From Paenibacillus amylolyticus (GTDB lineage Bacteria; Bacillota; Bacilli; Paenibacillales; Paenibacillaceae), in assembly GCF_029689945.1 (NCBI RefSeq), contig NZ_CP121451.1, forward strand, positions 3,348,001-3,412,000: a stretch of 64,000 nucleotides of DNA, written 5' to 3'. Shown here piece after piece: positions 2,749-47,741 of the stretch. A program made the position numbers and the translations under genes. The notes below the pieces were generated by a model, which did no database searches, was not told the DNA's origin, and saw only the letters and a list, made by a program, of their open reading frames with translations. Position 1 is the stretch's first letter, and each line of letters opens with the position of its first letter.

Positions 2749-2899
2749 TTTACATGGGGGCACTACGAGGGAAGTACCATCTTTCGATCGCTGTTATCCC
2801 CGGATTTTTTGGATTCCCTTTTCTAAAGGGTAAAATCCGGGGATAAAGGCGCACGCTACGCTTCTTCAGATTGGTTCTTCCCTCTCCGTTGTTGTGTAA
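2749..2899 (-). repeat. Dispersed palindromic element, copy A (short form)
   Basis: About 151 bp, read on the minus strand. It has near-terminal inverted ends (TTACAC / ATGTAAA), a GAAGCG..GCGCC mini-hairpin, and a central stem in which TTATCCCCGGATTTT pairs perfectly with AAAATCCGGGGATAA around an inner CCCTTT/AAAGGG hairpin. The tail CAGCGATCG follows the stem, as in all other copies. No inner AAAGCTTTCT module is present. It sits between spoVIF and a terminator. Confidence 0.85.
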
Positions 2900-2957
2900 C
2901 TGGAAGTTCAGTTTATAGAACCAAATTACATCGAATGATTGTATGGTAATGTAAGAA

Positions 2958-3005
2958 GGGTGTTCCATGAGGTCATGTAGATGACATGATGGAACACCCC
3001 TTTTT
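2958..3005 (+). terminator. Rho-independent terminator
   Basis: A long stem, GGGTGTTCC paired with GGAACACCC around a nested GTCAT/ATGAC hairpin, is followed by CTTTTTG. Orientation fits termination of the spoVIF transcript after reading through repeat copy A. Confidence 0.8.
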
Positions 3006-3063
3006 GTGTGGTGGAGAGCAGTTGGGATGAAGACAGCCTTAGTTAAGCTTCAAATTGAAATTT

Positions 3064-3336
3064 TTATGTATTTTCTTTTGTTGTACTCTTTTTATCTTGG
3101 GAAGAGCTGATGAATATTAGAGTTATGATTAGAACTACAATGATAATGCTATTGGAAGGGAATTCTTTCAGGATGTAATCTTGCACAAGTAAGATCAGGA
3201 TAGAGACAAATAAAATAATCTGCAGGACAAGCTTTGTTGAGCGATCAGGATCGTTGGATCGTCTGGAGACACCATATAGGATAAGGCATATTAGACTAAA
3301 AAGCAGAAGTGAACCCAGGAGTAAAATGGCAAGCAT
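3064..3336 (-). CDS. Small membrane protein of unknown function (90 aa)
   Basis: Three hydrophobic helices are visible (residues about 2-22, 36-52 and 62-78), separated by a basic RRSNDPDRSTK loop and ending in a charged DKKSTTKENT tail. The start at 3336 has AAAGGTG eight bases upstream, which supports real translation. I do not recognise a family. It is convergent with spoVIF and stands alone; nothing nearby suggests a role. Confidence 0.6.
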   Translation of the reverse strand: MLAILLLGSLLLFSLICLILYGVSRRSNDPDRSTKLVLQIILFVSILILLVQDYILKEFPSNSIIIVVLIITLIFISSSQDKKSTTKENT

Positions 3337-3634
3337 GCATGAACACCTTTCTGTAATTAATTTTTAGCCAATTGGAACAACATGACAAGTCATTAATTAT
3401 ATCATAGTAATTTCTGGATTTGTTGATTATATGGAAATATGAGGTGCTCATTGCCCTTTACATACGCCTCTTTTTGATTTTCACAGGATGTACTTTGCTT
3501 TCCTCCGGGGGAGCGGTAAACTGTTGCATACGACGAGTTGTATGAATCAGGCTTAATATATACATTTTGTGACGGAATGGCGTCACCATGCATGAGACAT
3601 ATATTTATTTTGGAGAGATGTGGAGGACATACGA
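3337..3634. other. Intergenic region, no gene recognised
   Basis: AT-rich stretch between the small membrane gene and the sensor kinase. A 63-codon open frame on the minus strand (3402-3593) lacks a ribosome site and family resemblance. The promoter of the lytS-like operon must lie here, but I see no convincing -35/-10 pair. Confidence 0.5.
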
Positions 3635-5302
3635 TTGGAAATGTTTACGATGCTGCTGGGTTTATTTGAACGGGCGGCGCTGCTGATTATATTTTTATTC
3701 TTTCTGTCGAGGGTGCCGAGATTCAGGCAGATTCTGCAAAAGGGGAAATTAAGGTGGCAGGAATCTATTGCGGTTACCTTGTTATTCTGTGCTTTTGCCA
3801 TCTTCGGGACATATACGGGCATTAATGTGGAAGGTTCACTGGTGAATGTGCGGATCATCGCCGTGTTATCGGGTGGTATTTTGTTCGGAGCACCTGTGGG
3901 TATTATTACGGGGATAGTCTCCGGGGTGCATCGGTATTTGATCGATATGGATGGAATCACAGCCATACCGTGTCTCATCACAAGTATCCTGGCAGGTCTG
4001 GTCTCCGGCTATATACATAAGTACACACCCAAGTCCAAGCGATGGATTATCGGTATTGGTGCTGGAATGATCTGTGAAGCGCTCACAATGTTATTGATCC
4101 TGCTATTCTCCTATCCTGATCCACTGGGTGCCGATATTGTTTCGAAGATTGCGCTGCCCATGATTCTGGGTGAAGTCAATATTGGTCTGATTGTGCTTCT
4201 GGTGCAGAGTGTTGAAGGGGAAAAGGAAATGATTGCAGCTCGTCAGGCGAAGCTGGCACTGGAGATTGCGAACAAGACCTTACCGTATTTCCGTTCCATC
4301 GATGAGGATTCTCTGCGCAAAATCTGCCGGATTATTCAAGAGGATATTCAGGCTGATGCGGTTGCGATTACAGATACTCGGAATGTACTGGCTTATGTAG
4401 GATTTGGCGAGGAACGCTATCATATTGGCAATGAAATTATAAGTGAAATGACCAAGAAGACGATCTCCAGCGGGGAGATCACGATCAGTAATGATGTTAT
4501 TGATGAAAAAACACCGGATATCCACTCGCTGTTAATCATTCCGCTCAAAGAACGAGGGGACATTACAGGTGCGCTCAAAATCTATTATCGCAAAGCGTAC
4601 AAAATTACGTATCCTTTGCAAACGATGGCTGTAGGTCTGTCGCAGATCATCTCGACGCAGATGGAAGTATCGCGGGTAGAAGAGATTAAGGCCGCTGCCA
4701 ACAAAGCTGAACTCCGCGCATTACAGACGACCATTCATCCTCATTTTCTGTTTAATGCGCTAAATGCCATTGCTTCGTCCATCCGCACCAAACCAGATCG
4801 TGCGAGGGAACTGATTGTGAATTTATCCGGTTACATGCGTTACAATCTGGAGCTGTCGGATGAGCTAATTGATATTCATAAGGAATTGGAGCAGGTCCGT
4901 AATTATGTAGAGATTGAGAAAGCCCGCTTCGGCAGCTGGCTGAATGTTATCTATGAGATTGATGAGGTCGCGGTGCATATTCCAAGTCTTGTCATCCAGC
5001 CGCTCGTCGAAAATGCAATTATTCATGGCATCCTCAAGGTGAAGGGACCTGGGACTGTTCGAATTCGGGTACAGGATTATCCAGAGTTTGTGCGAATCAG
5101 CGTTAGTGATACAGGAGCAGGTATTAGTGCAGATATTATTGAGCGCGTCTACCATGACCGTATGCCGGGTAACCAGATCGGGCTGTATAATGTGCATCGC
5201 CGGGTCAAGCTGATATACGGACAAGGTGTAACCATTACAAGGCTGGAACAAGGAACCGATATTTTATTTGATGTGCCCAAAGGAGATGTCGTAACAAGGT
5301 GA
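3635..5302 (+). CDS. LytS-type sensor histidine kinase (5TM-LYT, GAF, His kinase)
   Basis: Membrane sensor kinase of the LytS/YpdA/BtsS class. Order of parts: about 185 N-terminal residues with five to six membrane helices (5TMR-LYT), a GAF-like middle, then the His_kinase region with the phospho-His in [12 protein letters not shown] and a C-terminal ATPase domain ([14 protein letters not shown]). TTG 3635 is preferred because GGAGG at 3622-3626 lies eight bases upstream; GTG 3620 would leave that site inside the gene. The response regulator follows 7 bases after the stop, and an MFS carrier comes after it. LytS-class kinases commonly sense pyruvate or other small metabolites and control transporters. 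Confidence 0.92.
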
Positions 5303-5309
5303 TGGATCA

Positions 5310-6107
5310 ATGAGAGCTCTTATTGTGGAAGACGAGATTCTGGCAAGCGAGGAATTGAATTATCTCATCCAGGAACATAGTCAGATTGAGGTGGTGGATC
5401 GCCTTGAAGACGGGCTGGACGTACTGAAATTTCTGCAGGAACAAGAAGTGGATGTCATTTTCCTCGATATCAATATTCCCTCGCTGGATGGCATGATGCT
5501 GGCCCATCATATTGGGAAGTTTGCAGCAAAACCCTATATTGTTTTTACTACGGCGTATAAGGAACATGCAGCAGAAGCCTTTGAACTGGAGGCATTCGAT
5601 TATATTCTGAAGCCATATGACGAGAAGAGAATTGCTGCGATGCTCCATAAGCTGGAGATGGCTTTCAAGCGTGATCACACACCGACGGAGTCACATGTGC
5701 AGGATGGACCATCCCTTACGGCGGACGGATCTGCTGTTGTCCAGGGTGAACTGGTGCGGGATATGAATTCCCATACGGACAGAAGAATTAATTTGCTGCG
5801 GAATGACAATATTATTGTTACGGATACGGCAGATATCTACTATGCGGAAGCGCAAGAGAAAGTGACGAAGGTATATACCAAAAATGGGGAGTTCACCATG
5901 CCAGTGAGCATTTCGGATTTTCACAGCCGTCTGCCGCAGGACACGTTCTTTCGCTGCCACCGTTCGTATGTTGTAAATCTGTCGCAAATCCGTGAAATCG
6001 TGCCTTGGTTCAACAATACGTATCTGCTTCGCCTGCGTGATCTGGAGGCTGAAGTGCCAGTGAGTCGCGGGAAGGTCAAGGAATTCAGGCAACTCATGCG
6101 CATCTAG
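5310..6107 (+). CDS. LytTR-family response regulator
   Basis: 265 residues. The N-terminal receiver has the acid cluster VEDE, phospho-acceptor Asp in FLDINIPSLDG (about residue 54) and the Lys in LKPYDEK. After a Ser/Asp-rich linker comes a C-terminal LytTR DNA-binding domain (about 165-262: YYAEAQEKVTKVYT, FFRCHRSYVVNLSQI, PVSRGKVKEFR). The start is ATG 5310, with AAGGTG ending ten bases earlier across the kinase stop. LytTR proteins bind pairs of about 9-10 bp direct repeats two helical turns apart; such a pair lies just downstream, in front of the MFS gene. Confidence 0.93.
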   Translation: MRALIVEDEILASEELNYLIQEHSQIEVVDRLEDGLDVLKFLQEQEVDVIFLDINIPSLDGMMLAHHIGKFAAKPYIVFTTAYKEHAAEAFELEAFDYILKPYDEKRIAAMLHKLEMAFKRDHTPTESHVQDGPSLTADGSAVVQGELVRDMNSHTDRRINLLRNDNIIVTDTADIYYAEAQEKVTKVYTKNGEFTMPVSISDFHSRLPQDTFFRCHRSYVVNLSQIREIVPWFNNTYLLRLRDLEAEVPVSRGKVKEFRQLMRI

Positions 6108-6109
6108 AA

Positions 6110-6139
6110 GCATTTCATTCCGCATCTGGTGCAACTCAT
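6110..6139 (+). promoter_or_regulatory. Candidate LytTR regulator binding site (direct repeat)
   Basis: GCATTTCAT at 6110-6118 and GCAACTCAT at 6131-6139 are direct repeats whose starts are 21 bp apart, two turns of the helix on one face. A possible -10, TATGAT at 6172-6177, has no good -35, as expected of an activator-dependent promoter. From memory, the E. coli regulator YpdB uses GGCATTTCAT-N11-GGCATTTCAT at yhjX, essentially the same word and spacing. Binding here is inferred. Confidence 0.6.
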
Positions 6140-6227
6140 GCTCAAAACGGTGTAATGAATCCCCTTTCATGTATGATTAGCTTGTGAACGCATTCATGTA
6201 TATGACATCGGCAAAGGGGAGATCACG

Positions 6228-7523
6228 ATGAAAGCAGCTATTTCATCCGCTTCATCAGCACCTACATCAACAAGTACACCTACAAAAATGAACCGTTGGC
6301 TTATTGTTCTGGGGACGATCATTGTACAAATGGGCCTTGGAACCATCTATACCTGGAGTTTATTTAATCAACCGCTGTCTGACCGTTTCGGATGGGACGT
6401 CAGCTCGGTCGCGATAACTTTTTCAATTACCAGTTTTGCTTTGGCATTCGCCACGTTGTTTGCAGGACGTTTGCAGGAACGTTGGGGTCTTCAGCGTCTG
6501 ATTCGGGTAGCCGGGGTTGTGCTCGGGCTGGGTCTGATTCTGAGTTCCCAAGTCTCTTCGTTAACACTGCTGTACATTTTGGCTGGATTTGTTGTTGGTT
6601 TTGCAGATGGTACGGCGTACATTACGTCGTTGTCCAATCTGATTAAATGGTTCCCTGAGCGTAAAGGGCTGATCTCGGGAATCTCAGTCGGTGCCTTTGG
6701 TACAGGTAGTCTATTGTTTAAATATGTGAACTCGGCGTTGATTGGTGCTGTTGGTCCTGCTCAGGCATTTATGTATTGGGGCATTATCGTTCTGGTTCTG
6801 GTGGTTGCGGGATCATTCCTGATCCGTGAAGCCATTATTCGTGAACAGGCTCCGGCAAGCAAGGAAGGATCCAAACAAGTCGTGGCACGTCGTGATTATA
6901 CAGTGAAAGAGATGCTGCGTACAAAAGAAGCGTATATGCTGTTTGTTATTTTCTTCACGGCATGTATGAGCGGCTTGTATCTGATCGGTATTGTCAAAGA
7001 TATCGGTGTACAGCTTGCAGGTCTTGATGTAGCTACAGCTGCCAACGCAGTGGCCATGGTCGCGATCTTCAACACGGCAGGACGGATTATTCTGGGTGCA
7101 TTGTCCGATAAAGTTGGACGGATGAAAGTCATCGCTGGTGCGCTGCTGGTTACAGCCGTAGCTGTTATGACACTTAGTCTGGTTCCACTAACCTTCGGGA
7201 TTTTCTTCGCCTGTGTAGCGGCCGTTGCATTCTGCTTCGGTGGTAATATTACGGTATTCCCGGCGATTGTAGCCGATTACTTCGGACTGAAAAATCAGAG
7301 CAAAAACTATGGCGTGATCTATCAGGGATTTGGATTTGGTGCTTTGGCCGGATCGTTTATTAGCGCCCTCTTGGGTGGATTCCATCTTACCTTCATCGTG
7401 ATTGCCGTACTCTGTGCAGTCTCGCTGTTGCTCGCATTGATCATCACCCCTCCAGGTCAAGGTCGTCGTGCACGTCAACGTGAAAAACAGATGAACCTGA
7501 AGCCTTCATCACGGGCAAGCTAA
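6228..7523 (+). CDS. MFS transporter, oxalate/formate antiporter (OFA) family, YhjX-like
   Basis: 431 residues with twelve predicted membrane helices and a Ser/Thr-rich cytosolic N-terminus before MNRWLIVLGTIIVQMGLGTIYTWSLF, the typical OFA-family opening. GRLQERWGLQRLIR and ALSDKVGRMK are the MFS loop motifs. ATG 6228 is preceded by AAGGGGAG. OFA carriers move small carboxylates such as oxalate, formate or pyruvate. Placement directly after a LytS/LytR pair parallels E. coli YpdAB-YhjX, so a pyruvate-like substrate is a reasonable inference but is not shown by the sequence. Confidence 0.85.
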   Translation: MKAAISSASSAPTSTSTPTKMNRWLIVLGTIIVQMGLGTIYTWSLFNQPLSDRFGWDVSSVAITFSITSFALAFATLFAGRLQERWGLQRLIRVAGVVLGLGLILSSQVSSLTLLYILAGFVVGFADGTAYITSLSNLIKWFPERKGLISGISVGAFGTGSLLFKYVNSALIGAVGPAQAFMYWGIIVLVLVVAGSFLIREAIIREQAPASKEGSKQVVARRDYTVKEMLRTKEAYMLFVIFFTACMSGLYLIGIVKDIGVQLAGLDVATAANAVAMVAIFNTAGRIILGALSDKVGRMKVIAGALLVTAVAVMTLSLVPLTFGIFFACVAAVAFCFGGNITVFPAIVADYFGLKNQSKNYGVIYQGFGFGALAGSFISALLGGFHLTFIVIAVLCAVSLLLALIITPPGQGRRARQREKQMNLKPSSRAS

Positions 7524-7604
7524 CAACATGCACCGGAAGTACGGAATACGCAACAGAGAATATATTTTCATCTTATAAAGCACATTATAAAAAACAAAGT
7601 AAGC

Positions 7605-7633
7605 AAAGCGGTCTCCAGAAGAGGCCGCTTTTT
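7605..7633 (+). terminator. Rho-independent terminator after the MFS gene
   Basis: AAGCGGTC and AGGCCGCTT pair around a short loop and are followed by TTTTT. It closes the kinase-regulator-carrier operon. Confidence 0.85.
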
Positions 7634-7795
7634 GGTATCTTCTACCGTACCAGACATCGGTTAGATATTACGATTAGACCATCTGGCTGCCTGCGAGCAT
7701 GGTGCCTAATGTGCATTCCATCATTCGCTTCTGTTATACTCTAGGTGAATTCAACAACACCAAGACCAAGTTATGTACCCCAGAGGAGGCATATC

Positions 7796-8278
7796 ATGAA
7801 ATTCATTAAATACACACAACCTGATTTTGATGATTATTATGCATTGGTTTCCAATACGGACGTGATGAAACAGATTACAGAACGTGCAATACCGGAGCAA
7901 GAGGCGAGAACGCAATTCGAGTCCATGCTGGATTTCAATGAACGTTCCACTTGTGGACATTACCGGGTATTTAGCGAAGATGGTGACGGTGTGGCGTATG
8001 CCAAATTGATTCCGGATGAGGCAGACCCGAACCGAGCTGAAATAGGTTACATGATCCTGCCTGAACACTGGGGCAAAGGACAGGGGACATCCATAGCGTC
8101 GCGGTTGATTATTCAGGCCCAAGCCGCGGGAATTGGATCGCTCTATGCAGTTATTGACCCGTCTAACGTCGCTTCCCGTCAGATCTTAACCAGACAGAAC
8201 TTTGTGTCCACCTGGACTGGCGATTACGAGGGGCTTCCTGGTGAGATTTTGGAGTTAAATCTTCAAATGAAGCGATAA
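7796..8278 (+). CDS. GNAT family N-acetyltransferase
   Basis: 160 residues from ATG 7796, which has AGAGGAGG seven bases upstream; the frame is open further 5' without a second site. The core shows IGYMILPEHWGKGQGTSIASRLI, with the acetyl-CoA pyrophosphate-binding loop, then VIDPSNVASRQILTRQNF, the usual GNAT motif B with the Asn and the neighbour-aligning helix. This places it among RimJ/RimL-like enzymes. The acceptor (amino acid, peptide or small amine) cannot be deduced. It stands alone between the OFA carrier and glsA. Confidence 0.85.
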   Translation: MKFIKYTQPDFDDYYALVSNTDVMKQITERAIPEQEARTQFESMLDFNERSTCGHYRVFSEDGDGVAYAKLIPDEADPNRAEIGYMILPEHWGKGQGTSIASRLIIQAQAAGIGSLYAVIDPSNVASRQILTRQNFVSTWTGDYEGLPGEILELNLQMKR

Positions 8279-8304
8279 AGGGGCAGTCTTAGGGTAATCA
8301 GATC

Positions 8305-8393
8305 ATATAGGGCATCTTGCATGATGCGGATGAACCCATGCTCATCCTGATGCATGAGTTCACTCATGCGGATCTCATGTAAGATGCTTATAT
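8305..8393 (+). promoter_or_regulatory. Structured leader upstream of glsA (possible three-way junction)
   Basis: Outer arms GCATCTTGCATGA (8312-8324) and TCATGTAAGATGC (8375-8387) pair over 13 positions with one G-U, extended by ATATA/TATAT. Between them lie two further hairpins: GGATGA (8328-8333) with TCATCC (8342-8347), and GCATGAG (8352-8358) with CTCATGC (8363-8369) around TTCA. The outer stem ends about ten bases before the GGAGGAG ribosome site of glsA. The folding is my own base-pairing and no known riboswitch class was recognised. Confidence 0.55.
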
Positions 8394-8415
8394 AGAGATA
8401 TGGAGGAGATGACAT

Positions 8416-9322
8416 ATGAGCAATTCATTAACCATGGAACGTCTGCATGCGTTACTGCCGGAATGGCTGGAAACCAGTCGGTTGCACACCGGTCAGGGTA
8501 AGGTGGCCTCTTATATTCCGGAGCTTGTCAAAGCCTCTCAGGATGAACTCGGTATACATATCATGGACGCTGAAGGGAACCATGTGTCCGCAGGGGATTG
8601 CGGTGTTCCATTTACGATGCAAAGTATCTCCAAAGTATTTACCCTCATTCTGGCCTTAATGGACCATGGGGAAGAAGCAGTTTTCTTTAATGTAGGAAAA
8701 GAACCTACAGGCGACGATTACGATTCGATGATCAAGCTGGAATTGGTTGAACCTGGCATTCCGTTTAATCCATTGATCAACGCAGGTGCAATTACGGTGT
8801 CCTCCCTTATTGGAGGAGACTGCAAGGAAGAGAAATCACGCCGAATTCTGGAGTTTTTCCGCAAGCTGGCACATAATAATCAATTGGGATACAACGAAGA
8901 GGTATTTCAGTCCGAATCGGAGAGCGGTCACCTGAATCGCTCACTTGGTTATTTCCTGAAGCATAATGGTGTGATCAAGGATGACGTGGAGGATGTACTT
9001 GCCGTGTATTTCCGTCATTGCTCCATTGAAGTTACCTGTGCTGATCTGGCACGAATGTCACTCGTTCTGGCTTATGATGGAACAGACCCAATTACGGGCA
9101 ACGAACTCATTCCTCGTCGGGATGTACAATGCGTCAGGCGAATTTGCCATTGAGGTGGGATTGCCCGCGAAGAGTGGTGTGTCCGGAGGCATTTTGACCC
9201 TTGTACCAGGACAATTCGGCATAGGTCTGGTTGGCCCGGCTCTGAATCGCAAAGGCAACAGTATTGCCGGCGTGCATCTGCTTGAACGTCTGTCCAAGGA
9301 ATTCGACTGGAGCTTTTTCTAA
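8416..9322 (+). pseudogene. glsA: Glutaminase GlsA, broken by a short internal deletion
   Basis: Glutaminase hydrolyses glutamine to glutamate and ammonia; it belongs to the serine-dependent beta-lactamase-like fold. The N-terminal two thirds (FTMQSISKVFTLILAL with the catalytic Ser-Lys; PFNPLINAGAI) are intact from ATG 8416 behind GGAGGAG. Near 9117 the frame leaves PITGNELIPRR and runs to a stop at 9153, while the other frame resumes at GMYNASGEFAIEVGLPAKSGVSGG and ends normally at 9322. About 12 codons normally between RR and GMY are missing, together with the frame. The junction CGTCGGGATG suits a deletion between two CGG triplets. The Lys-Ser-Gly motif survives, but the gene as given cannot make active enzyme. 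Confidence 0.88.
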
Positions 9323-14208: not shown

Positions 14209-14234
14209 ATGAGTATAAAGGAGGACCTTTTCAC

Positions 14235-16863: not shown

Positions 16864-16915
16864 GCACAGAGATCATGGTAATACAGTAACAGCAATATAG
16901 ATGTTCAACTAAATA

Positions 16916-17062
16916 TTTACACGATAACGGAGAGGACAGAAATAACCTGATGAAGCGAAGCGTTCGCCTTTATCCCCGGATTTCCCCTTGTAAAAAGGAA
17001 TCAAAAAATCTGGGGATAACAGCGATCAAAAGGTTGTTCTGTCATTGGAGTGTCAGTGTAAA
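16916..17062 (+). repeat. Dispersed palindromic element, copy B (short form)
   Basis: 147 bp between TTTACAC (16916-16922) and GTGTAAA (17056-17062). The inner arms GACAGAA/TTCTGTC pair. The central stem TTATCCCCGGATTT pairs with AAATCTGGGGATAA and the tail is CAGCGATC. It lies inside the polysaccharide operon between the synthase and the receiver gene. Confidence 0.88.
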
Positions 17063-17099
17063 TAACATTTTGACCATGTATAGATAATCGAGGAGAAGG

Positions 17100-21726: not shown

Positions 21727-21951
21727 AAAATAAGTTTCAAGAGATGCCAACGTAGTGGAGGGGACGAAATCGATTCTGAAGAAGCGAAGCGGTCGCCTGA
21801 AAGCTTTCTGAAAGAAAGCTACATCGGAAGCATAAGCTATCCTTGAATTTTTACCTTTAAAAAGGAGAATCAAAAAAAATCGAGGATAACAGTGATCGTA
21901 AGAACGATTCGTAACCGGAACGATCAAGTGGCAGAACAGTGAAACTATTTT
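21727..21951 (+). repeat. Dispersed palindromic element, copy C (one inner module, most diverged)
   Basis: 225 bp with ends AAAATAAGTTTCA and TGAAACTATTTT, unlike the other copies in sequence but still inverted. It contains one AAGCTTTCTG-AAAGAAAGCT module and the central stem TATCCTTGA..TCGAGGATA, where changes on one arm are matched on the other. It fills most of the space before the monooxygenase gene; 21551-21726 shows nothing else. Confidence 0.8.
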
Positions 21952-23235: not shown

Positions 23236-23426
23236 TTTATACGAAAACGGAGAGGACAGAAATAACGTGAAGAAGCGAAGCGTTCGCCTGAAAGCTTTCT
23301 GGAAGAAAGCTACATCGGAAGCATACGCTATCCCCGGATTTTTCCCTTTATAAAAGGGAATCAAATAAATCTGGGGATAACAGCGATCGGAAGGTTATTC
23401 TGTCATCGGAGTGCGTTCAGTATAAA
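23236..23426 (+). repeat. Dispersed palindromic element, copy D (one inner module)
   Basis: 191 bp between TTTATAC (23236-23242) and GTATAAA (23420-23426). The C-to-T change in one end relative to copy B is matched by G-to-A in the other. It holds GACAGAA/TTCTGTC arms, one AAAGCTTTCTGG module, the stem TATCCCCGGAT/ATCTGGGGATA and the CAGCGATCGG tail. It lies between the monooxygenase and the binding-protein gene. Confidence 0.88.
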
Positions 23427-34235: not shown

Positions 34236-34251
34236 AGGAGTGGAAGGAAAA

Positions 34252-39301: not shown

Positions 39302-41284
39302 ATGGAGGCTGACCTAGGATTGTCTACACAACGTTATCCTTTTGCATATGATCCGGCTGAACCTTTTGTATCCCGTCTGGGAGAATGGGTTGCCGATGTT
39401 TTTTACGATATTTTGCCTGAGTCCGGCTTCGAGGTACGGGATGAACAGATTTTTATGGCGTACCAGCTCGAACGGACCTATGGAGATAAAAAGACCATTA
39501 TGGCGGAGGCCGGTGTCGGAACAGGTAAGACGTTAGTCTATCTGCTCTACGCGGTCTGTTATGCACGTTATACGGGCAAACCGGCGGTAATTGCTTGTGC
39601 CGATGAGTCCTTGATTGAACAGCTTGTGAAGCCCGGCGGAGATATTGCGAAGCTGGCTGCACATCTGGATCTGGAAGTGGACGCACGTCTGGGTAAGTCC
39701 CCTGACCAATACGTCTGCCTGAACAAATTAAGTGCGGTGCGATTCGCGGATGAGGATGCGCCTGTTATTGAAGAAGTGCATGAAAGTCTGCCGGATTTTG
39801 TGAATACGCCGGGTACACTTCAAGCCTTCCATCCGTATGGAGACCGCAAACAGTATCCGCATCTGAACGATCGTCAGTGGAACAAAATCAACTGGGACCC
39901 GTTCCAGGATTGTTTTGTATGTCCAAAAAGACAACGCTGTGGCCTGACGCTGTCGCGTGACCATTACCGTCGTTCCAAAGACATCATCATCTGTTCCCAT
40001 GATTATTACATGGAGCATGTGTGGACCTATGATGCACGCAAACGCGAGGGACAACTGCCACTGCTGCCGGATCACAGCTCGGTTGTATTTGATGAAGGAC
40101 ATTTGCTGGAAGAAGCAGCCCTGAACGCACTGAGCTACAAGCTGAAACACCGGATTTTCGAGGAACTCGTGACTCGTCTGCTTGAAGGAGAGATTCGTGA
40201 ATCCCTCGCAGAGCGTGTGGATGAAGCGATTGAGAGTAGTGAGCGACTGTTCCGCATGTTGGATACGTATACGGTGGCGATTCCGGGATCGGAACGGAAA
40301 GAGGTTCGGGTAGAAGCTCCGTTGCTGCGTGAGATTGAACGTCTGACCAACATATTGGATGCCATTGGCGAAGAACTGGTATTTGAGAGCGGATTGTTCT
40401 CGCTGGATGGGTACCAGATGCGTGTCGTCGAAGAACATCTGGACATGATTCAGACCGCACTTGCGTTGTTCCGCAAGGAAGATGGCTACATCTGTTGGGC
40501 AGAAGAAAACGAAGACGAGACAACATTATCGATTATGCCGCGTACGGTGAAGGAAATGCTGAATGAGCGTGTGTTCAACACAGGTATTCCAATCGTGTTC
40601 TCTTCCGCAACGTTATCTGTGGATAGTTCATTCCGTTATGTGGCGGATAGCCTGGGCATTGATGATTTTGTATCGTTCTCGGTGGCTTCTCCTTATGATT
40701 ACGCGGACAAAATGAAGATGAGGATTGCTGATGAAGCTGTACCGGGTCACCCGGAGAATGAAAATCGCATGCGTGACGCGGTATCTTTACTTCAGGAGAG
40801 CGGAGGACGTGCGCTGATTCTGTTCCGTACGATGGAGGAGTTACAGGCGTTCAAGCAGGACATTGTCCATGTACCTGAAGCAGAAGGTTTACGCTTTATG
40901 TATGAGGGCGACCGAGAGATCAGTGATCTGATTGCGGCATTCCAGCAGGATGAGGAAAGTGTACTGTGCTCCGTTAATCTGTGGGAAGGACTGGACGTGC
41001 CAGGACCGTCATTATCCAATGTCATGATCTGGTCGCTTCCGTATCCACCACAAGACCCTGTTTTCAATGCAAAACGCAGTGCGTCAGCAGCACCATACGA
41101 GGAGATCGATCTTCCGTATATGCTCTTGCGTGTGAAGCAAGGTCTCGGACGTCTGATTCGGACAAGCACGGATTCCGGTTCCGCGGTCATTCTCGATGAA
41201 TCGCTGTATACCAAAAAGGAAGCCAAAGACCGCATTGCGGCTCTGCTTCCTGAAGGTGTAGAATGGACAACCCTGACACACTGA
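39302..41284 (+). CDS. DinG/XPD-like ATP-dependent helicase with Fe-S cluster cysteines
   Basis: 660 residues of the superfamily 2 DinG/YoaA type. Walker A is AEAGVGTGKTLVYLL (about residue 67). Four cysteines, in QYVC and FQDCFVCPKRQRCG, fit the [4Fe-4S] cluster of this class. VVFDEGHLLEEAA is the DEAH box. SSATLSVDSSFRYV, LCSVNLWEGLDVPG and QGLGRLIRTSTDSG are the later helicase motifs. It likely unwinds 5'-tailed DNA or D/R-loops. No LexA box is visible upstream, so SOS control is not supported. ATG 39302 or TTG 39320 may be the start. Confidence 0.88.
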   Translation: MEADLGLSTQRYPFAYDPAEPFVSRLGEWVADVFYDILPESGFEVRDEQIFMAYQLERTYGDKKTIMAEAGVGTGKTLVYLLYAVCYARYTGKPAVIACADESLIEQLVKPGGDIAKLAAHLDLEVDARLGKSPDQYVCLNKLSAVRFADEDAPVIEEVHESLPDFVNTPGTLQAFHPYGDRKQYPHLNDRQWNKINWDPFQDCFVCPKRQRCGLTLSRDHYRRSKDIIICSHDYYMEHVWTYDARKREGQLPLLPDHSSVVFDEGHLLEEAALNALSYKLKHRIFEELVTRLLEGEIRESLAERVDEAIESSERLFRMLDTYTVAIPGSERKEVRVEAPLLREIERLTNILDAIGEELVFESGLFSLDGYQMRVVEEHLDMIQTALALFRKEDGYICWAEENEDETTLSIMPRTVKEMLNERVFNTGIPIVFSSATLSVDSSFRYVADSLGIDDFVSFSVASPYDYADKMKMRIADEAVPGHPENENRMRDAVSLLQESGGRALILFRTMEELQAFKQDIVHVPEAEGLRFMYEGDREISDLIAAFQQDEESVLCSVNLWEGLDVPGPSLSNVMIWSLPYPPQDPVFNAKRSASAAPYEEIDLPYMLLRVKQGLGRLIRTSTDSGSAVILDESLYTKKEAKDRIAALLPEGVEWTTLTH

Positions 41285-41374
41285 TGACTGAATTTTAAAT
41301 CATACAAAATCGTACTAAATCCTACATTTACATTAGATTATGCGTTCTAATCGGGCCGAAATGGCTCCCATCAG

Positions 41375-41434
41375 AAAAAGCTCTTGTTCTCAACGGATAC
41401 ATCATCCGTATGTGAGCAAGAGCTTTTTTTTTCA
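41375..41434 (+). terminator. Strong terminator after the helicase gene
   Basis: AAAGCTCTTG pairs with CAAGAGCTTT, with a nested ACGGAT/ATCCGT stem, followed by nine T's. Confidence 0.92.
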
Positions 41435-41852
41435 TTTTGATATTTTGATGGTTCATCCAAAGGACTATTCTTCCCTTTTTTTCGAGGGATTTTCCCTCGC
41501 CCCCAATCGCTCCAAAATTCTAACGAACCTACCACACCTTATTAGCGTGATAATTAAGTGATGTCAAGTCTAACGAATCTCAGTAACGTTATCCCGTCCA
41601 AAATGGCTTTTCAACCTAGTAATCGACCGAATTTGGAGAAATAACATCGCTATGATTCGTTACCTGCCAGAACAGCGCGAATAGGAGTGAATAGCGTGTG
41701 TCAGGTTCATTAGGAGCAATGAGCGCTAAATGAACACGACATGAGTGAGTACTAAATGAATGCTCATAAGGGAAAGGGAGGGCCTCTGTCATGCTCATGA
41801 CTTATGGAAGTGTCCCTTTTTTGATGTGTACAGATTTTAAATTTTAGCTTTG
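41435..41852. other. Intergenic region with one hairpin
   Basis: No gene seen. AAAGGGA (about 41773) and TCCCTTTTTT (about 41813) enclose a GTCAT-GCTC-ATGAC hairpin, which may terminate transcription rightward or act on the 3' side of cysK. Confidence 0.4.
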
Positions 41853-42809
41853 TTAAAAAATACCCATGCTCAGATACCGCTCCCCGGTATCCGGCGCAAT
41901 GCAGAGCACCCGGTGCCCCGGCCCCAGTTCCTTCGCGATGCGAAGGGAGGCCCACACCGAAGCGCCAGAGGAAGGGCCGAGCAACAGCCCTTCCCGGGCA
42001 GCGAGCTGCCGCATCGTATCCAGTGCGTCCTCATCGGACACCTGGATGATGGCATCCCACACGTCGGTATTCAGGATGTCCGGAATGAACCCCGGACTTG
42101 TACCGACGAGTTTGTGTGGTCCGGGCTCGCCACCGGACAACACCGGAGAACCTTTGGGCTCCACCGCATAGATACGGATATCGGGCAACTGCTTGCGCAG
42201 TTCCTCCCCGGTTCCGGTAATGGTTCCGCCGGTTCCCGCTGTGGCAATAAAAGCATCCAGCTTGCCATCCATCTGCTGCATAATCTCGGGAGCGGTCGTG
42301 ATCCGGTGAATATCCGGGTTCGCCTGATTCTCGAACTGCTGCGGAATGAAGCTGCCCGGAATGTCTGCCTGAAGCTCTTTCGCTTTGCGAATTGCGCCGG
42401 GCATCCGCTCCGCAGCAGGGGTGAGCACCACATCTGCGCCGTAGGCTTTCAGAATGTTGATACGTTCCTTGGACATATTGTCCGGCATGATCAGAATGGC
42501 TTTATATCCTTTGGCAGCAGCATTCATCGCAAGACCGATGCCGGTATTGCCGCTGGTCGGTTCGATGATGGTTGCGCCAGGGTGCAAGTGTCCTGATCGT
42601 TCAGCCTGAACAATTAGGTTATAGGCGGCACGGTCTTTGACGCTGCCGCTGGGGTTAAAGTATTCCAGTTTCACATATACCTCAGCGGAGTCGCTGTCTG
42701 TGAGTCTGTTCAGTTTAACGGCAGGTGTCTGGCCGATCAGTTCGGTCACATCTGCGGCAATGCCTGTATGTGCGGGTGTTCGTTTAATCGAATGTGTATT
42801 GAAATCCAT
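41853..42809 (-). CDS. cysK: Cysteine synthase (O-acetylserine sulfhydrylase)
   Basis: 318 residues of the PLP fold-type II family. LEYFNPSGSVKDRAAYNLI carries the PLP lysine, EPTSGNTGIGLAMNAA is the substrate loop, ATAGTGGTITGTGEEL binds PLP phosphate, and VEPKGSPVLSGG closes the site. It makes cysteine from O-acetylserine and sulfide. ATG 42809 lies nine bases after AAGGAG. The gene is visibly richer in GC than its surroundings, so it may have a different origin. The partner serine acetyltransferase is not in the window. Confidence 0.92.
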   Translation of the reverse strand: MDFNTHSIKRTPAHTGIAADVTELIGQTPAVKLNRLTDSDSAEVYVKLEYFNPSGSVKDRAAYNLIVQAERSGHLHPGATIIEPTSGNTGIGLAMNAAAKGYKAILIMPDNMSKERINILKAYGADVVLTPAAERMPGAIRKAKELQADIPGSFIPQQFENQANPDIHRITTAPEIMQQMDGKLDAFIATAGTGGTITGTGEELRKQLPDIRIYAVEPKGSPVLSGGEPGPHKLVGTSPGFIPDILNTDVWDAIIQVSDEDALDTMRQLAAREGLLLGPSSGASVWASLRIAKELGPGHRVLCIAPDTGERYLSMGIF

Positions 42810-43090
42810 GAAGTACAACTCCTTGATTAATAAGACGTTGAGCGTATATCCAGATCAAAATCAATTCATGCCTTATTGGAATGGTTGGATATCTCTATTC
42901 CATCTTAATGAACACAGCTAGCGGTGGTCAACCTGTTTTGATTCAGGTCGAGGGACTCGGAACCACAGGGGCAGTGAATAGGACAAAGCAAGCAAGGCTT
43001 GGATTCAAACGAAATGACGGATACACGGGTGCAGATCCATTTGTGATGACAACAGGGGATATGCCCAGGTTCAATATGGTCAGAGTTGTA

Positions 43091-43473
43091 TCAAGTCTGC
43101 GCCAAATCCATCTGCAGATGCCGACTGAGTTCTTTTTTGACTTCGTTTCGAGCGAACGTCCATAACATGTAGAAACGTTGCCAATACCCCTGCACATGTA
43201 CAAGGTTTCGATTCCATCCGCTTCACGTTTCTCCTCCAGAACTTTGACACCACGTGTTCTCATCTGTTTACGAAGGACCAACATCTCCTTGAGCACATTG
43301 TTCTGGATGCGGGTCAGCGACAGAATGTAGACTTCAGGCATCTTAAGCTGCAGCGTATCCAAAGTTCGAATATCCCGTTCAAGCACATCCAGCAATAACG
43401 TGCGCACAACCAGACCTTTAATTATTCGATGGTCTTCATCCGCAGGGGATGGAGCAGAAGTTGAGGATGTCAT
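43091..43473 (-). CDS. Small SOS-controlled protein, YhjD-like (frameshift near 43187)
   Basis: Read as given, the frame runs to 42943 with an unlikely tail. One extra G (C on the plus strand, CCCC near 43187) gives YMCRGYWQRFYMLWTFARNEVKKELSRHLQMDLAQT and a stop at 43091, 127 residues in all. The helical body (IIKGLVVRTLLLDVLERDIRTLDTLQLKMPEVYILSLTRIQ) resembles, from memory, the YhjD family of Bacillus. A LexA box 43 bases upstream makes it part of the damage response. Function unknown. Confidence 0.65.
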
Positions 43474-43515
43474 ATGTTCACTTCCTTAACCTTTAATTGG
43501 AATTCTTTATTTACA

Positions 43516-43527
43516 GAACATGTGTTC
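43516..43527 (-). promoter_or_regulatory. LexA (SOS) box of the YhjD-like gene
   Basis: GAACATGTGTTC fits GAAC-N4-GTTC exactly and is close to a full palindrome. It lies 43 bases before the gene start, next to an AT-rich stretch suited to a promoter. Confidence 0.8.
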
Positions 43528-43854
43528 CTATATTATAATCAATATATGTAATGGAGATACACAATACAACCGAGAATTATTGGAAGCCCAATTACCGTAT
43601 TCTCCTGCAGATACAGATAGCTAATGAGACTCGAGAGTTGAGGACAAGCCCAATCCAAAATTAGGTATAATTTTTGGCTTTTGCAGGAAACCTAAAGCCA
43701 TAAACCAAACACCTAGGCAATATAAGTTCTTAGATAAGTGATGTAGAAGGAACGAATTAAAGAAGTAAGAAGTGAATTAATGAGGATGAATTGGTGTCGC
43801 ACTTGATGCTCTCCAAGAGAGAATGCAGATTTATTTTGACGAAAAATGGGCAAC

Positions 43855-43884
43855 AGAAAAGCCCCTGCCTTGGGCGGCGGGGCC
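43855..43884 (-). terminator. Terminator of the TIR operon
   Basis: On the minus strand GCCCCGCC pairs with GGCAGGGGC, followed by TTTTCTG. A second GC hairpin (GCCGGTGCAGCGGC) lies just before it. 43528-43854 shows no gene. Confidence 0.7.
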
Positions 43885-43933
43885 TATGGAATACTGCCGG
43901 TGCAGCGGCAGGCTTGATGATGTGTGCAAAAGA

Positions 43934-44165
43934 TTACGCAAGATATTGAGGCTTTTCGTAGAACGCCTCTTTTTCAAGGATGACCTTATACGGTCTTTCC
44001 TTGCCCTTTAGGGAGGGCCCTATGGTCGTTAGCGGTACGGCCGGCTTGTGGAAACGATCTTCTTCCTTGGGTTCCGGAACCGGTCGTGATGATTCGGGCG
44101 CAGAACTGAGGCGTACCTTTTTCGCTGCCCCAGCGCTTGCTTATTTTTTTCGTTTCCGGTTTCAT
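43934..44165 (-). CDS. Small basic protein translationally coupled to the TIR gene (about 76 aa, probable frameshift)
   Basis: Its ATG overlaps the TIR stop as ATGA. The opening reads MKPETKKISKRWGSEK. If one A of the GAAAAAGG run near 44116 is removed, the frame continues as VRLSSAPESSRPVPEPKEED and ends ILEKEAFYEKPQYLA at 43934, followed by a terminator. The protein is Lys/Glu/Pro-rich with no membrane helix or known domain. Without the correction a 63-residue product would result. Coupling suggests a partner, regulator or antidote of the TIR protein. Confidence 0.5.
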
Positions 44166-45199
44166 TCCGGTTCGCCTCCTAACAAATCGTTGATGGCGTT
44201 GAACAGTTGACGATTCTGCAGGTCAATCTGCTGAAATACCGCCTCATCCGCTTCAATATGTCCAATAATGTGAACGGTGATTACATACCTCTTGGCTACA
44301 GGATAGCATAGCAGATACTCTTTCTCAAGGTAATCATCGTACAGATTGATCTTGATCTTGTTTTCCCGGTAAGAATCAATCACCAGGATGCGCTTGGGAT
44401 CATCCGGTTGTTTGTCGTCATTAGCGGACAAGTCATACTTTCTCCCCGGTTCTCCAACATTACCACATAATTGCTCAATATAACCACTATCATCTGTACG
44501 GTATATCGCTGTGCCACGTACGGCAAATGGAGGGTGAGAGACAAAGGCGGTGCGCAGGGCATCGCTCATTCGCTCCAGCATTTGGGCATCCGCTTTGCGG
44601 GTACGCAGCAATTCCCTAAAGAACCGCAGCAATTTGAACAGTTGTAACCGTGCTTCCCCCTCAGTACGCTTGTGCTTCTCAATGATATTCTCCAATTCTG
44701 GATCACTCCAGCGTCCTTGTTCCTCAATACTGTCTGCAATTTTGGAACATGCCACCGAGACCGCTGGTGCCCACTTCCCGTCAGAACGAATTTCATACAC
44801 AAGTGGATTTAGACCCAGCAAATCTGTGGGCATACGAAGTCCCTCGACCTTGGTCGTGTCCTTCATGTCCGTAATATCTTCAGGAAGAATGAAAAAAATA
44901 CGCTTACGTCCCAGACGGCCCATAAACAGACCCATTTCCAGCATTGTATTATCCCGGACCGACGCGTAGTACTTTCCGCGAATTTTGGATATATCATCCG
45001 GATGAAAAATAAAAATGGCAAAGTCAGTTGTGCGAACTTCTGCTTCCAGGTCGTCCATGGTATAGCTGCTTGGATTAAATACCCCGGAGTACCAAGGGGT
45101 AACTTCGGCTGAAAAACGTAAATTTTCGTGTACTGCGGCTGCAATCGGCTTCGCTTCCAGCGAGCAGCCAATAAAGACTCTTGGCTTTAACGTTTTCAT
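44162..45199 (-). CDS. TIR-domain protein (CAP12/Pycsar-type TIR) with C-terminal GAF-like sensor
   Basis: 345 residues. Positions about 5-130 match the predicted nucleotide-binding TIR-like family (PF10137): KPRVFIGCSLEAKPIAAAVHENL, WYSGVFNPSSYTMDDLE, TDFAIFIFHPDD and VRDNTMLEMGLFMGRLGRKRIFFIL, whose Glu is the expected NAD-cleaving residue. A charged linker (about 165-205) leads to a domain with GAF-like features (HPPFAVRGTAIYRTDDSGYIEQLCG; EYLLCYPVAKRYVITVHIIGHIEADEA). ATG 45199 follows GAGGCGG. Proteins with this TIR class are NADase effectors of phage-defence systems, usually triggered by a cyclic nucleotide. No cyclase gene is adjacent, so the C-terminal domain may sense the trigger directly. 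Confidence 0.8.
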   Translation of the reverse strand: MKTLKPRVFIGCSLEAKPIAAAVHENLRFSAEVTPWYSGVFNPSSYTMDDLEAEVRTTDFAIFIFHPDDISKIRGKYYASVRDNTMLEMGLFMGRLGRKRIFFILPEDITDMKDTTKVEGLRMPTDLLGLNPLVYEIRSDGKWAPAVSVACSKIADSIEEQGRWSDPELENIIEKHKRTEGEARLQLFKLLRFFRELLRTRKADAQMLERMSDALRTAFVSHPPFAVRGTAIYRTDDSGYIEQLCGNVGEPGRKYDLSANDDKQPDDPKRILVIDSYRENKIKINLYDDYLEKEYLLCYPVAKRYVITVHIIGHIEADEAVFQQIDLQNRQLFNAINDLLGGEPE

Positions 45200-45608
45200 C
45201 AATCCGCCTCGCTTAAACGGTAGTGGGATTCAATTGTTATATTATACCATAAACAGCAGAGTAAGTATGGAAACGTCTGAACTGGACAAAGATTAAGCCG
45301 ATTACGTTTGCTATAGTGTATGTATAAAAGGAAAATGATTCCTTTAAAAAGCGCCAAAAAATAAAAAAAGGCCCCAAATTGTCACAGTTGGGTGACTGAC
45401 AGTTATTTTTGGAAGCTTTGGTCATAGAATAAAGGAGCAGGTTGCACCATTAGCAAGCATTGCTTATCCTGGTGTGCCCGTACGACTGCTGGAGCAGCCC
45501 AGATGCTGCTTTATGCGCATATTTGACGGGTCGGCTGTTTAGACCCGGTCACGTTGGTGTTATATAATAGAAGAACAAGCAAGTTAGCTTTGGTGTTTAA
45601 GCAGAATC

Positions 45609-45759
45609 TTTACACGGTAACGAAGAGTGCAGAACCCGTCTGAAGAAACGAAGTGCTCGCCTTTATCAACGGATTTTCCCATTTGAAATATGGGATCAAA
45701 AAATCCGTGGATAACAGCGATCGGAAGAGGGTGCTGTAATCGAAGTGTTATAGTGTAAA
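45609..45759 (+). repeat. Dispersed palindromic element, copy E (short form)
   Basis: 151 bp between TTTACAC (45609-45615) and GTGTAAA (45753-45759). Central stem TTATCAACGGATTTT pairs with AAAATCCGTGGATAA. C-to-A on one side is matched by G-to-T on the other, and the inner hairpin is CCCAT/ATGGG instead of CCCTT/AAGGG. Tail CAGCGATCGG is conserved. 45203-45608 holds no gene, only the TIR promoter (TATAAT, minus, 45241-45246). Confidence 0.88.
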
Positions 45760-46047
45760 GTATAATGTTTAACCAAGCACAGCTAACCACAACAGAACAG
45801 AAAGGATCAGGATACCATGAGTTCCCGAAGGACAATCTCCCCAAGGACGATCTGGAAACGTTACGATCTCTCATACACATAGCGCCCCTTGTAGAGTACA
45901 CCAACCGGTTAAAAAAAACGGCTGACTCTGCGAAAGAGGGGATTGGAATGAATATTCGAAGGACGTACACGATGAGTTCTTCCAGGCTTGCCTTTTGCAG
46001 GGTACGGTCGGTCTAAAAACCAACCTACAAACTGCGAGGGAACCTGA
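45760..46047. other. Intergenic region with short doubtful frames
   Basis: Open frames here are short and unlike any family. ATG 45948 has a fair GAGGGG site but encodes only 22 residues (MNIRRTYTMSSSRLAFCRVR). It could be a leader peptide or decayed sequence. No repeat or terminator seen. Confidence 0.3.
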
Positions 46048-46782
46048 ATGAAGAGAACATCGTTAACCTTACAACACGTTAAAACAGAGGCGATCAAGTT
46101 CGCCATTATGCTGCTCGGTACATTTATTTTAGCTTTTGCCTATTATCACATTAACTTTCAGAATCATTTATCGGAGGGCGGATTTGTCGGTCTGGCCCTG
46201 CTCGGAAAATACGCAACAGGCTTATCGCCTGCCATCGGTATGTTGCTGCTGGACATTCCGGTCATGATCTTGGCCTGGTTCCTCAAAGGCTGGAAATTCA
46301 TGATTCAGGCATTGCTTGGCGTCGCTGCATTTTCCCTATTCTATGACGGCTTTGAACGATACTCCACACTGGTGATGTCGTTTAACGGAAATCTGTGGAT
46401 TCCGGCAGTTCTATCCGGCGTATTAACAGGGATAGGTGCTGGGATCGTGCTTCGATTCGGCGGAGCAACTGGCGGAGACGATATTCTCGCTGTGCTGGTT
46501 AGCCGCTGGAAGGGATGGAAGCTGGGGACTGTTTTCTTTGTCAGTGATGCTTTTGTATTGGGATTGTCGCTTTTCTTTCTTCCGGTAAAAGAAACTTTAT
46601 ATACGATTCTGGCCGTATGGATTGCCAGTAAAGTCATCACGTACGTCGTTAGTGTTCCGGCTCGCGGAACCGTGGTTACGACTTCAGCTGTGAAATTGCC
46701 GATGCCATCGGCTGCAGCCAAGGCGGTTAATGCTGCTGCGGTTTCACCACGGCCTACGGTGGCTAGAGGGGTATCTCATTGA
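46048..46782 (+). CDS. YitT-family membrane protein, short form
   Basis: 244 residues with five or six membrane helices. FALAYYHINFQNHLSEGGFVGLALL-type opening and GVLTGIGAGIVLRFGGATGGDDILA are the YitT signature. The usual C-terminal DUF2179 domain is absent; instead a 45-residue Ala/Pro/Val-rich tail follows the last helix. The ribosome site is GAGGGAACC before ATG 46048. Function unknown for the family, though its members are often annotated as transporters. Confidence 0.85.
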   Translation: MKRTSLTLQHVKTEAIKFAIMLLGTFILAFAYYHINFQNHLSEGGFVGLALLGKYATGLSPAIGMLLLDIPVMILAWFLKGWKFMIQALLGVAAFSLFYDGFERYSTLVMSFNGNLWIPAVLSGVLTGIGAGIVLRFGGATGGDDILAVLVSRWKGWKLGTVFFVSDAFVLGLSLFFLPVKETLYTILAVWIASKVITYVVSVPARGTVVTTSAVKLPMPSAAAKAVNAAAVSPRPTVARGVSH

Positions 46783-46849
46783 CCATACGTTTCAGAACAA
46801 ACCTAACTCTATATACATCCTATTCAGGACTTGATCGTTAACGTTTATA

Positions 46850-46893
46850 TAAAATCCCTTTTGTCTGTTCTACAGCAGCAAAAGGGATTTTAT
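46850..46893 (+). terminator. Terminator after the YitT gene
   Basis: AAAATCCCTTTTG pairs with CAAAAGGGATTTT, followed by ATTATA; symmetrical enough to serve both directions. Confidence 0.75.
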
Positions 46894-46984
46894 TATATTC
46901 GCTGTTGAAAGGATTGTATTCGCTAAACGGTTTCATTGGCAGATCACTGCAAATACAGCCATATTCCGATGTCACCCGATTCGT

Positions 46985-47464
46985 TCAGGGCTTGATTGAA
47001 GAAGCAATCTGACCATCCTGATTGTGGATAATGGCTCGAATATTCTGTTTGCTGCTAAGGGCTTTAGCCTTATTTACAGCTTCTGCCTTCGTATCAAATG
47101 TGGACAGATAGGTTGACTTTCCTTCTTCCTTGATTGCCCAACCAGAGTCAGTAGGGACGACATGGATATTGTCATGACTTTTGGACGAAGAGACGGGCTC
47201 GGAATGACGTCGCTCCGCAGAATTCGTAGAAGATGACGTTTTACGTTTGGAATTTTCGGAAGAAGATGTGGAGTCCGGTTTCGAACCTCCCGGTGCAGGA
47301 TGGTTTTCATCCCATTCTTCTGCCTTAGCTGTTGCTATGGCGATTGATCGCCCTTCCTCATACCCATCATCGAGCAGCGCATTGGCAATCTCAATGGCTT
47401 TGTGTCTGACACGTGGTTCCAGATTCTTCATCGATACTGGATAATCCTGTTTATTCCAAGGCAT
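46985..47464 (-). CDS. YdaT-like protein with DUF2188 domain
   Basis: 159 residues in two parts joined by a Ser-rich linker (about 60-95). The N-terminal MPWNKQDYPVSMKNLEPRVRHKAIEIANALLDDGYEEGRSIAIATAKAEEW is the YdaT/ChaB-like block. The C-terminal IHVVPTDSGWAIKEEGKSTYLSTFDTKAEAVNKAKAL is DUF2188. Both occur singly in many bacteria, often in stress-related small genes. No enzymatic role is suggested. ATG 47464 is behind AGGAGGGG. Confidence 0.8.
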   Translation of the reverse strand: MPWNKQDYPVSMKNLEPRVRHKAIEIANALLDDGYEEGRSIAIATAKAEEWDENHPAPGGSKPDSTSSSENSKRKTSSSTNSAERRHSEPVSSSKSHDNIHVVPTDSGWAIKEEGKSTYLSTFDTKAEAVNKAKALSSKQNIRAIIHNQDGQIASSIKP

Positions 47465-47514
47465 ATGAACCCCTCCTGTACAATATTGGATTAGTTGTAT
47501 ATTACCCAGTGAGG

Positions 47515-47741
47515 GCAGGGATAAACGATGAAGAGGACAGAAAGAACCAGAAGAAACGAAGCTAAAAGCTTTCTGCAGGAAAGCTACTTCGAAAGCATAT
47601 ACTTCGCCTAAAAGCTTTCTGAAGGAAAGCTACATCGGAATCACACGCTATCCCCGGAATTCCCTTTTCTAAAAGGAGTCAAAAAGTCTGGGGATAACAG
47701 CGATCTGAAGGTTAATCTGTCATCGGAGTGTCCAGTGTAAA
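47515..47741 (+). repeat. Dispersed palindromic element, copy F (two inner modules)
   Basis: About 227 bp ending in GTGTAAA (47735-47741); its left end is diverged. GAGGACAGAA and ATCTGTC arms are kept. The inner module (AAAAGCTTTCTG, AGGAAAGCTAC) occurs twice in tandem, at about 47563-47600 and 47608-47640. The stem TATCCCCGGA pairs with TCTGGGGATA and the CAGCGATC tail follows. Confidence 0.85.

Follow-up and report, generated by a model that had tools for sequence, protein, structure and literature searches.

The 64,000-nucleotide stretch of Paenibacillus amylolyticus DNA analysed here (the window; contig NZ_CP121451.1, positions 3,348,001 to 3,412,000) contains six copies of a palindromic element. 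On balance, we consider these copies to be members of a Paenibacillales-wide family of cis-acting structured RNA elements, which in the P. amylolyticus species group is packaged as a miniature inverted-repeat transposable element (MITE) of the IS630 type. A cis-acting mRNA element is the most likely identity. This function is inferred. Genome comparison has revealed that a TA is duplicated at the insertion site, that the ends are shared with IS630 elements, that the inner structure is preserved specifically on the plus strand, and that the element is conserved at two orthologous loci. An initial annotation of the window had described the six copies as carrying stem-preserving changes expected of a selected structured RNA or hairpin DNA and not of decay.

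In full copies, the core stands between terminal repeats (TATAARTTGAACTAA / TTAGTTCAAYTTATA), followed inward by a short outer stem and a long arm stem of variable sequence. The junction inside the arms is conserved (CTGAAGAAGCG..AGCG, TTCGCC, AACAGCGATCGGAAG) and includes a tiny hairpin, and the centre is formed by a long central stem, also of variable sequence. The element is longer than the ends given in the initial annotation, with TATAARTTGAACTAA located outside them in full copies elsewhere in the genome; in the window copies this terminal inverted repeat has decayed. A 39-nucleotide hairpin cassette (AAAAGCTTTCTGAAAGAAAGCT...) is optional and has two fixed places, of which one, both or neither may be occupied. 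Since the unpaired letters of the junction are conserved, they argue for a putative specific binding partner.

The inner structure has been maintained through extensive compensatory change. Across 212 copies, 89.6% of the cells of the 50-pair inner structure pair, and in 142 branch events both partners of a pair are altered while the pairing is kept. By comparison, 40 simulations on the tree averaged 7.3 such events and never exceeded 14, and sliding the partners gave a maximum of 22. The tree has been built from the elements themselves, and counting events reduces, without removing, the dependence that comes from shared ancestry. In our own R-scape-like implementation of a covariation test, the same 212 copies yielded six pairs with E ≤ 0.05 under a plain null, one of them below 0.05, and all of the eight strongest pairs are located on the palindrome.

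A second clade, represented by genomes G006 (73 matches) and G035 (57 matches), provides a further set, in which 7 and 4 of the matches, respectively, represent the same palindrome detected from the opposite strand. In these copies, the arms have been rewritten many times around nearly unchanged junction letters (for example GGGCAGAATTGTTC/GAACAATCTGC, GGTCCATTTGAATC/GATCAAATGGATC and AAGCTCGGATTCGTCC/GGATGATCCGAGCTT). In 43 copies from these two and six further genomes, 95.8% of the cells pair and double changes occur in 29 of the 42 pairs. The doubly changed cells number 244; 500 shuffles average 55, and sliding the partners gives no more than 39. The R-scape-like test finds seven pairs with E < 0.05 under either null, all seven inside the structure. 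Double changes are also seen in 24 of 41 pairs among 30 copies from a search of the order, 28 of which come from other genera and some of which are near-duplicates. The view that the structure is selected and does not reflect decay is well supported by the event counts and by the second clade. By the R-scape standard set in the initial annotation, the P. amylolyticus-group set is weak alone, and the significance is supplied by the second clade and the event test.

Whether the fold is maintained as RNA or as DNA can be addressed through its mismatches. G-T and A-C mismatches are mirror images of each other in DNA, while of the two only the G-U form can pair in RNA transcribed from one strand. 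In 36 core pairs, which leave out the terminal repeats, the short outer stem, the apical stem and three single pairs, the inferred changes from a Watson-Crick pair lead to G-T in 136 events and to A-C in 38. The corresponding G-T:A-C events are 150:140 in the terminal repeats, 24:23 in the short outer stem and 53:58 in the apical stem. Over all 50 inner pairs the cells number 483:279, a G-T share of 0.63 compared with 0.46 expected from unpaired columns, although cell counts are not independent owing to shared ancestry. Leading-oriented copies of the P. amylolyticus genome (99) and lagging-oriented ones (29) have practically the same G-T share, 0.63 and 0.62; therefore, a replication-strand mutation bias does not explain it. 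In the second clade, 98 of the non-Watson-Crick cells are G-T and 22 are A-C (44 copies), with inferred events of 28:11, and the 30 order-search copies give 38:6 cells. In 17 of 19 and in 28 of 43 copies, the plus strand has the more stable fold of the two strands. Because the core stems drift to G-T far more often than to A-C and the terminal repeats do not, the data point to selection acting on the plus-strand transcript. Thus, of the two options left by the initial annotation, structured RNA or hairpin DNA, the mismatch test favours RNA of one strand.

The copies labelled A to F below are the six of the window in order of position, and two of them can be followed at orthologous places. The place of copy C has a match in 24 of 26 related loci, of which two are weak (L121 and L143) and two belong to another subtype (L111 and L120); in L113 and L122 the place is affected by deletions. 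In 21 genomes, with these six loci left out, the arms and junction of copy C have a mean identity of 91.5–92.6%, compared with 78–80% for the flanking noncoding sequence, 65% for third codon positions and 97% for first and second codon positions. The orthologue of copy A in G031 agrees with it at 112 of 132 positions of the element but at only 32 of 60 and 28 of 60 positions of the flanks, and the differences in its arms are compensated. On these alignments, both orthologous copies are more conserved than their flanks. The fold is also found where the ends have decayed: in the 22 of 199 copies whose terminal repeats pair below half, the central stem is 93% paired and the arms 84–90%.

The full copies of the P. 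amylolyticus species group are, judging from their insertion sites and ends, IS630-type MITEs, an aspect overlooked by the initial annotation. Paenibacillus sp. PAMC 26794 (L107) carries a copy that is absent at the same place in eight relatives with matching flanks, P. amylolyticus included. The empty site reads GGATT-TA-GTAATGG in L104 and L125, and in L107 a TA stands on both sides of the element; the other relatives that are empty at this place have different letters at the site. The locus of copy B is filled in L111, L122 and L139 and empty in L116, L118 and L124, and also in L119–L121, and the filled and empty sites differ by the element plus TA. This is the sole clean comparison among five further filled and empty sites tried. 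The D locus was not used as an empty site; deletions blur its boundaries. A TA flanks 22 of 35 near-intact copies on either side, with a C before the left TA position in 21 and a G after the right one in 18, suggesting a CTAG-like insertion target. IS630 elements prefer CTAG targets.

IS630 (DDE_3) loci with similar ends have been identified in relatives. The ends are identical to those of the element in L194, differ by one or two letters per end in L214 and L216, and are variants in L183 and L206. The three loci L194, L214 and L216, from three genomes, have either two open reading frames (ORFs) or matches in different frames, which may reflect frameshifting or decay. No DDE_3 match was found in the P. 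amylolyticus genome, the L183 transposase protein has no match there (31 of 75 genomes of the genus do match it), and no pair among the genome's 78 such ends is about 1.1 kb apart. The statement that no transposase is near was right, and the searches of the genome found none of the IS630 kind, but IS630 elements with the same ends do occur in relatives. The terminal repeats are not family-wide, being absent from the G006 and G035 copies and from the copies of other genera. An origin from REP/RAYT elements, prompted by the orientation bias described below, was considered and rejected: the Y1 domain (PF01797) has no match in P. amylolyticus and is found in 25 of 59 genomes overall, and the TA duplication is of the IS630 type.

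The copies are not randomly oriented. In the P. amylolyticus genome, 101 of 132 collected copies are leading-oriented, as are 73 of 93 copies with an exact core. Between genes of the same direction, 72 of 91 copies point with the genes (p = 2e-8), of which 63 of 77 lie where both genes are leading and 9 of 14 where both are lagging. A replication-coupled mechanism as the sole cause of the orientation is not favoured, since gene direction matters too. The median distance from a copy to the downstream ORF start at such sites is 14 nucleotides; ORFs have been called by length only, and an ORF call crosses the centre of 6 of the 132 copies. In the order sample, 15 of 17 copies point with the genes, and several copies in other genera lie, by eye, directly after a stop codon and before the next ribosome-binding site. 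The G006 and G035 copies often come in divergent pairs, the first on the minus and the second on the plus strand, separated by a few hundred bases, for example L330/L332 and L340/L346, with further such places in L336, L339, L342 and L349. A c-di-AMP riboswitch is located in L336 (2011–2160, minus strand), no more than a few hundred bases from two copies of the element.

The family is abundant, with numbers per genome from a few to well over 100, and is confined, as far as it has been searched for, to one order of soil bacteria. In the P. amylolyticus genome, the 14-mer core GGRTAACAGCGATC is matched 168 times when one mismatch is allowed, and a reversed control is matched nowhere. The distinct copies collected number 222, including 137 from this genome. 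A first covariance model (R1), for which at most the best 52 copies per genome were taken, finds copies in all 36 genomes of the genus examined (P. amylolyticus included) and in 42 of 59 genomes overall. Core-motif counts across the 36 genomes range from 3 to 195, the lowest being near the control level of 0–3. Because none of 129 copies in P. amylolyticus has a sister of at least 95% identity, the closest reaching 88% over columns that include the ends and short flanks, the array of copies looks old. A second model (R2), with at most the best 15 matches per genome scored, matches 148 of 198 sampled Paenibacillales genomes spread over 27 of 43 genera. In a sample of the phylum it matches 5 of 299 genomes, all five in Paenibacillaceae, the family of the window itself; the range searches covered samples of the order and of the phylum, and not other phyla. 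The core pattern AACAGCGATCGGAAGR is also contained in 29 stretches of IMG/VR viral contigs (L354–L382).

The initial annotation had asked whether the element belongs to a known RNA family. No Rfam 15 family matches it when the whole window is searched at the gathering score, and ten loci together with 3 kb of the window searched up to E 1 give no match of relevant score on the element. No description of it was found in the open-access literature, the scope of the search, which did not extend to subscription papers and supplements.

The cassette was present in 37 of the 57 copies collected first, a sample biased by the use of a cassette-bearing query. Clean presence and absence between orthologous copies is seen in L112 versus L128 and L104 versus L106, and further cases are L240 versus L067/L068, L286 versus L076, and L008 versus L064/L066. 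All of these pairs have been checked by eye; automatic typing and change counts mislabelled some copies and were not used. The simplest reading is that copies would exchange the cassette with one another by recombination. At the D locus of Paenibacillus sp. PCH8 (L109:7232–7491), the copy has a left arm of one subtype and a right arm of another, as if copies may recombine.

The six window copies are present at the places and on the strands first reported, and all are diverged relatives of one palindromic core of about 150 nucleotides. Each sits between longer ORFs of the window, in agreement with the intergenic position described. Copy A (2749–2900, minus strand) is located downstream of recG and has variant arms, no cassette and decayed terminal repeats. 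Copy B (16898–17080, plus strand; core 16916–17062) has partly decayed terminal repeats with a TA on each side, and its neighbours are a glycosyltransferase-like ORF and a response-regulator ORF. Copy C (21727–21951, plus strand) forms part of the leader of a luciferase-like (alkanesulfonate-type) monooxygenase ORF; it has its own arm subtype, has lost its terminal repeats, and contains one cassette at 21799–21837 (plus strand). The core of copy D (23236–23426, plus strand), with one cassette at 23290–23328 (plus strand), is flanked by the monooxygenase ORF and a sugar-binding-protein ORF. The core of copy E occupies 45609–45759 (plus strand). The core of copy F (47518–47741, plus strand) has a decayed left end and two cassettes, at 47563–47602 (approximate limits) and 47610–47648, both on the plus strand.

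The motifs ascribed to all six copies are less uniform than described. The ends TTTACAC/GTGTAAA are clear in B and E, changed in D, partial in A, absent in C, and present in F at the right end only. The arms GACAGAA/TTCTGTC are different in A, C and E, where complementarity is nevertheless kept, and the single common tail does not extend to copy C, whose tail is CAGTGATC. On the other hand, the reported paired changes can all be found: TTTACAC/GTGTAAA to TTTATAC/GTATAAA in D, CCCTT/AAGGG to CCCAT/ATGGG and also ACGG/CCGT in E, and CCTT/GAGG, which includes a wobble, in C. Folding of single copies took in A, B and E and left out C, D and F; the plus-sense folds have z-scores of -5.9, -6.3 and -6.2, respectively, and none of 200 shuffles folds as well. 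Two observations concern the surroundings of the copies. The recG gene (window 183–2308) is split over two reading frames, as is dnaA (genome C1:1060586–1061070), and both splits look like small assembly errors in the P. amylolyticus genome. Copy E adjoins a gene for a CAP12/Pycsar-type TIR-domain protein (PF10137; window 44162–45202, minus strand), which is likely a phage-defence gene.

In the mechanism that we propose, an IS630 transposase now missing from P. amylolyticus would have dispersed the copies in the past. Where a copy landed near or inside a transcription unit, its plus strand would be transcribed as a leader or intercistronic RNA, and the fold, probably via the conserved junction, may act in cis on stability, processing or the binding of a cellular factor. 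Working copies would persist over long times as their transposon ends decay. One rival is an ordinary palindromic MITE of the RUP, Correia/NEMIS or ERIC type, whose fold matters only as DNA for transposition and whose old copies are neutral debris. The IS630 ends, TA duplication and intergenic spread of the element, the covariation in the terminal repeats as well, and the frequency of folding among such MITEs, as described in PMC2229807, all agree with this rival. It is nonetheless unlikely in our view, as the G-T excess is confined to the core stems and spares the ends, copies with decayed ends are still folded, copies C and A are conserved above flanks and silent sites, and the core is kept without these ends in the second clade and in other genera. 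A selfish element whose RNA fold serves its own spread and not the host, through an RNA intermediate or an RNA recognised by the mobility machinery, would account for the high copy number, the constraint at the RNA level and the difference in ends between clades. We regard it as somewhat less probable again: the constraint persists where the ends are lost, no recently duplicated copies are found in P. amylolyticus, and the TA duplication and terminal inverted repeats fit DNA transposition.

Two further explanations carry little probability. A DNA palindrome that is bound by a chromosomal protein or forms a cruciform, with no role as RNA, would fit the leading-strand bias of the exact-core copies, but it is improbable given that the G-T excess is strand-specific and equal in leading and lagging copies, and that the orientation follows genes too. 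Least probable is a small RNA that acts in trans from many copies and has its own promoter and terminator. A stable fold of 150 nucleotides with conserved unpaired junction letters would suit it, yet copies lie close to downstream ORF starts or, for several copies of other genera as judged by eye, right after stop codons, and by eye no U-run closes the fold in the aligned copies.

Several results weigh against the interpretation as a family of cis-acting RNA elements. Pair-breaking changes number 501 and are about as frequent as in the null (simulated mean of 531), and the terminal repeats too have an excess of double events (56 compared with a null mean of 9.8). Under a rate-weighted null, the R-scape-like test of the 212 copies gives no pair below 0.05, the best being 0.05. 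The three single pairs omitted from the core set are mixed, with G-T:A-C cells of 2:44, 141:2 and 10:31. The pairing of the arms drops as the ends decay (Spearman 0.47), and for the opposite strand of copy A the fold is slightly more stable (-57.6 compared with -56.2 kcal/mol). Gene direction does not account for the bias of the copies between opposed genes, of which 23 of 30 are leading-oriented, and the orientation with genes is weak in G006 and G035 (13 of 21). The genomes with the highest copy numbers are largely without an IS630 partner, as judged by matches to the L183 protein; therefore, the presence of the partner and the copy number do not go together.

Several known repeats resemble the element. 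RUP (repeat unit of pneumococcus) has IS630-Spn1-like ends, a TA target and about 110 copies according to PMC3049150 and PMC2229807. The element shares with RUP a short folded form, IS630-like ends and the TA target, and differs from it in its order-wide conserved core, its cassette and the evidence of selection as RNA. For Correia/NEMIS elements of Neisseria, a folded transcript with cutting by RNase III has been proposed; they too have terminal inverted repeats, TA ends, size variants with an internal segment and folding, and they differ in genus and sequence, as far as PMC2229807 describes them. BOX of pneumococcus is likewise modular with optional internal units, from what is given in PMC3049150, whereas the present element has a single 39-nucleotide cassette at two fixed places and is found only in Paenibacillales. 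The MRSC-65-2 motif, as outlined in PMC11109978, also has a long covarying stem and dozens of copies per genome and is suspected to be mobile, but it consists of one stem with UYCCGG repeats and occurs in diverse phyla. By this comparison of descriptions only, the Paenibacillales element would be distinguished by its junction and by having been found in one order. The bcr1 repeat of the Bacillus cereus group, in the descriptions found in PMC6542083 and PMC2267715, is a mobile folded intergenic repeat of about 150 bp with many copies and is linked to a TTTAT motif, which would set it apart by description only.

The combination of mobile ends and a folded transcript is of an already known kind (RUP, NEMIS, ERIC, BOX). 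What is new, with the nearest systems compared by description only, is the family itself, its order-wide range, the cassette, and the evidence for selection on RNA in the interior but not in the ends. In bacterial MITEs with folded transcripts, known for a long time, selection on the fold as RNA is hard to distinguish from a fold that simply follows from the DNA being palindromic. Here the two are separated within one element: the ends behave like DNA, the interior behaves like RNA, and the interior outlives the ends. The comparison of G-T with A-C changes can be transferred to NEMIS, ERIC, RUP and BOX. A broader and more tentative possibility, which we hold to be doubtful at present, is that one cellular factor, an RNase or an RNA-binding protein, recognises the junction, and that different transposon ends have seeded this junction into dozens to well over 100 transcription units per genome across the order. 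These would form a large post-transcriptional regulon made from a mobile element, in which the swappable 39-nucleotide cassette may tune single sites. Reaching 195 core matches in a single genome and extending across an order, the family offers a large natural experiment on how transposons may seed RNA control elements.

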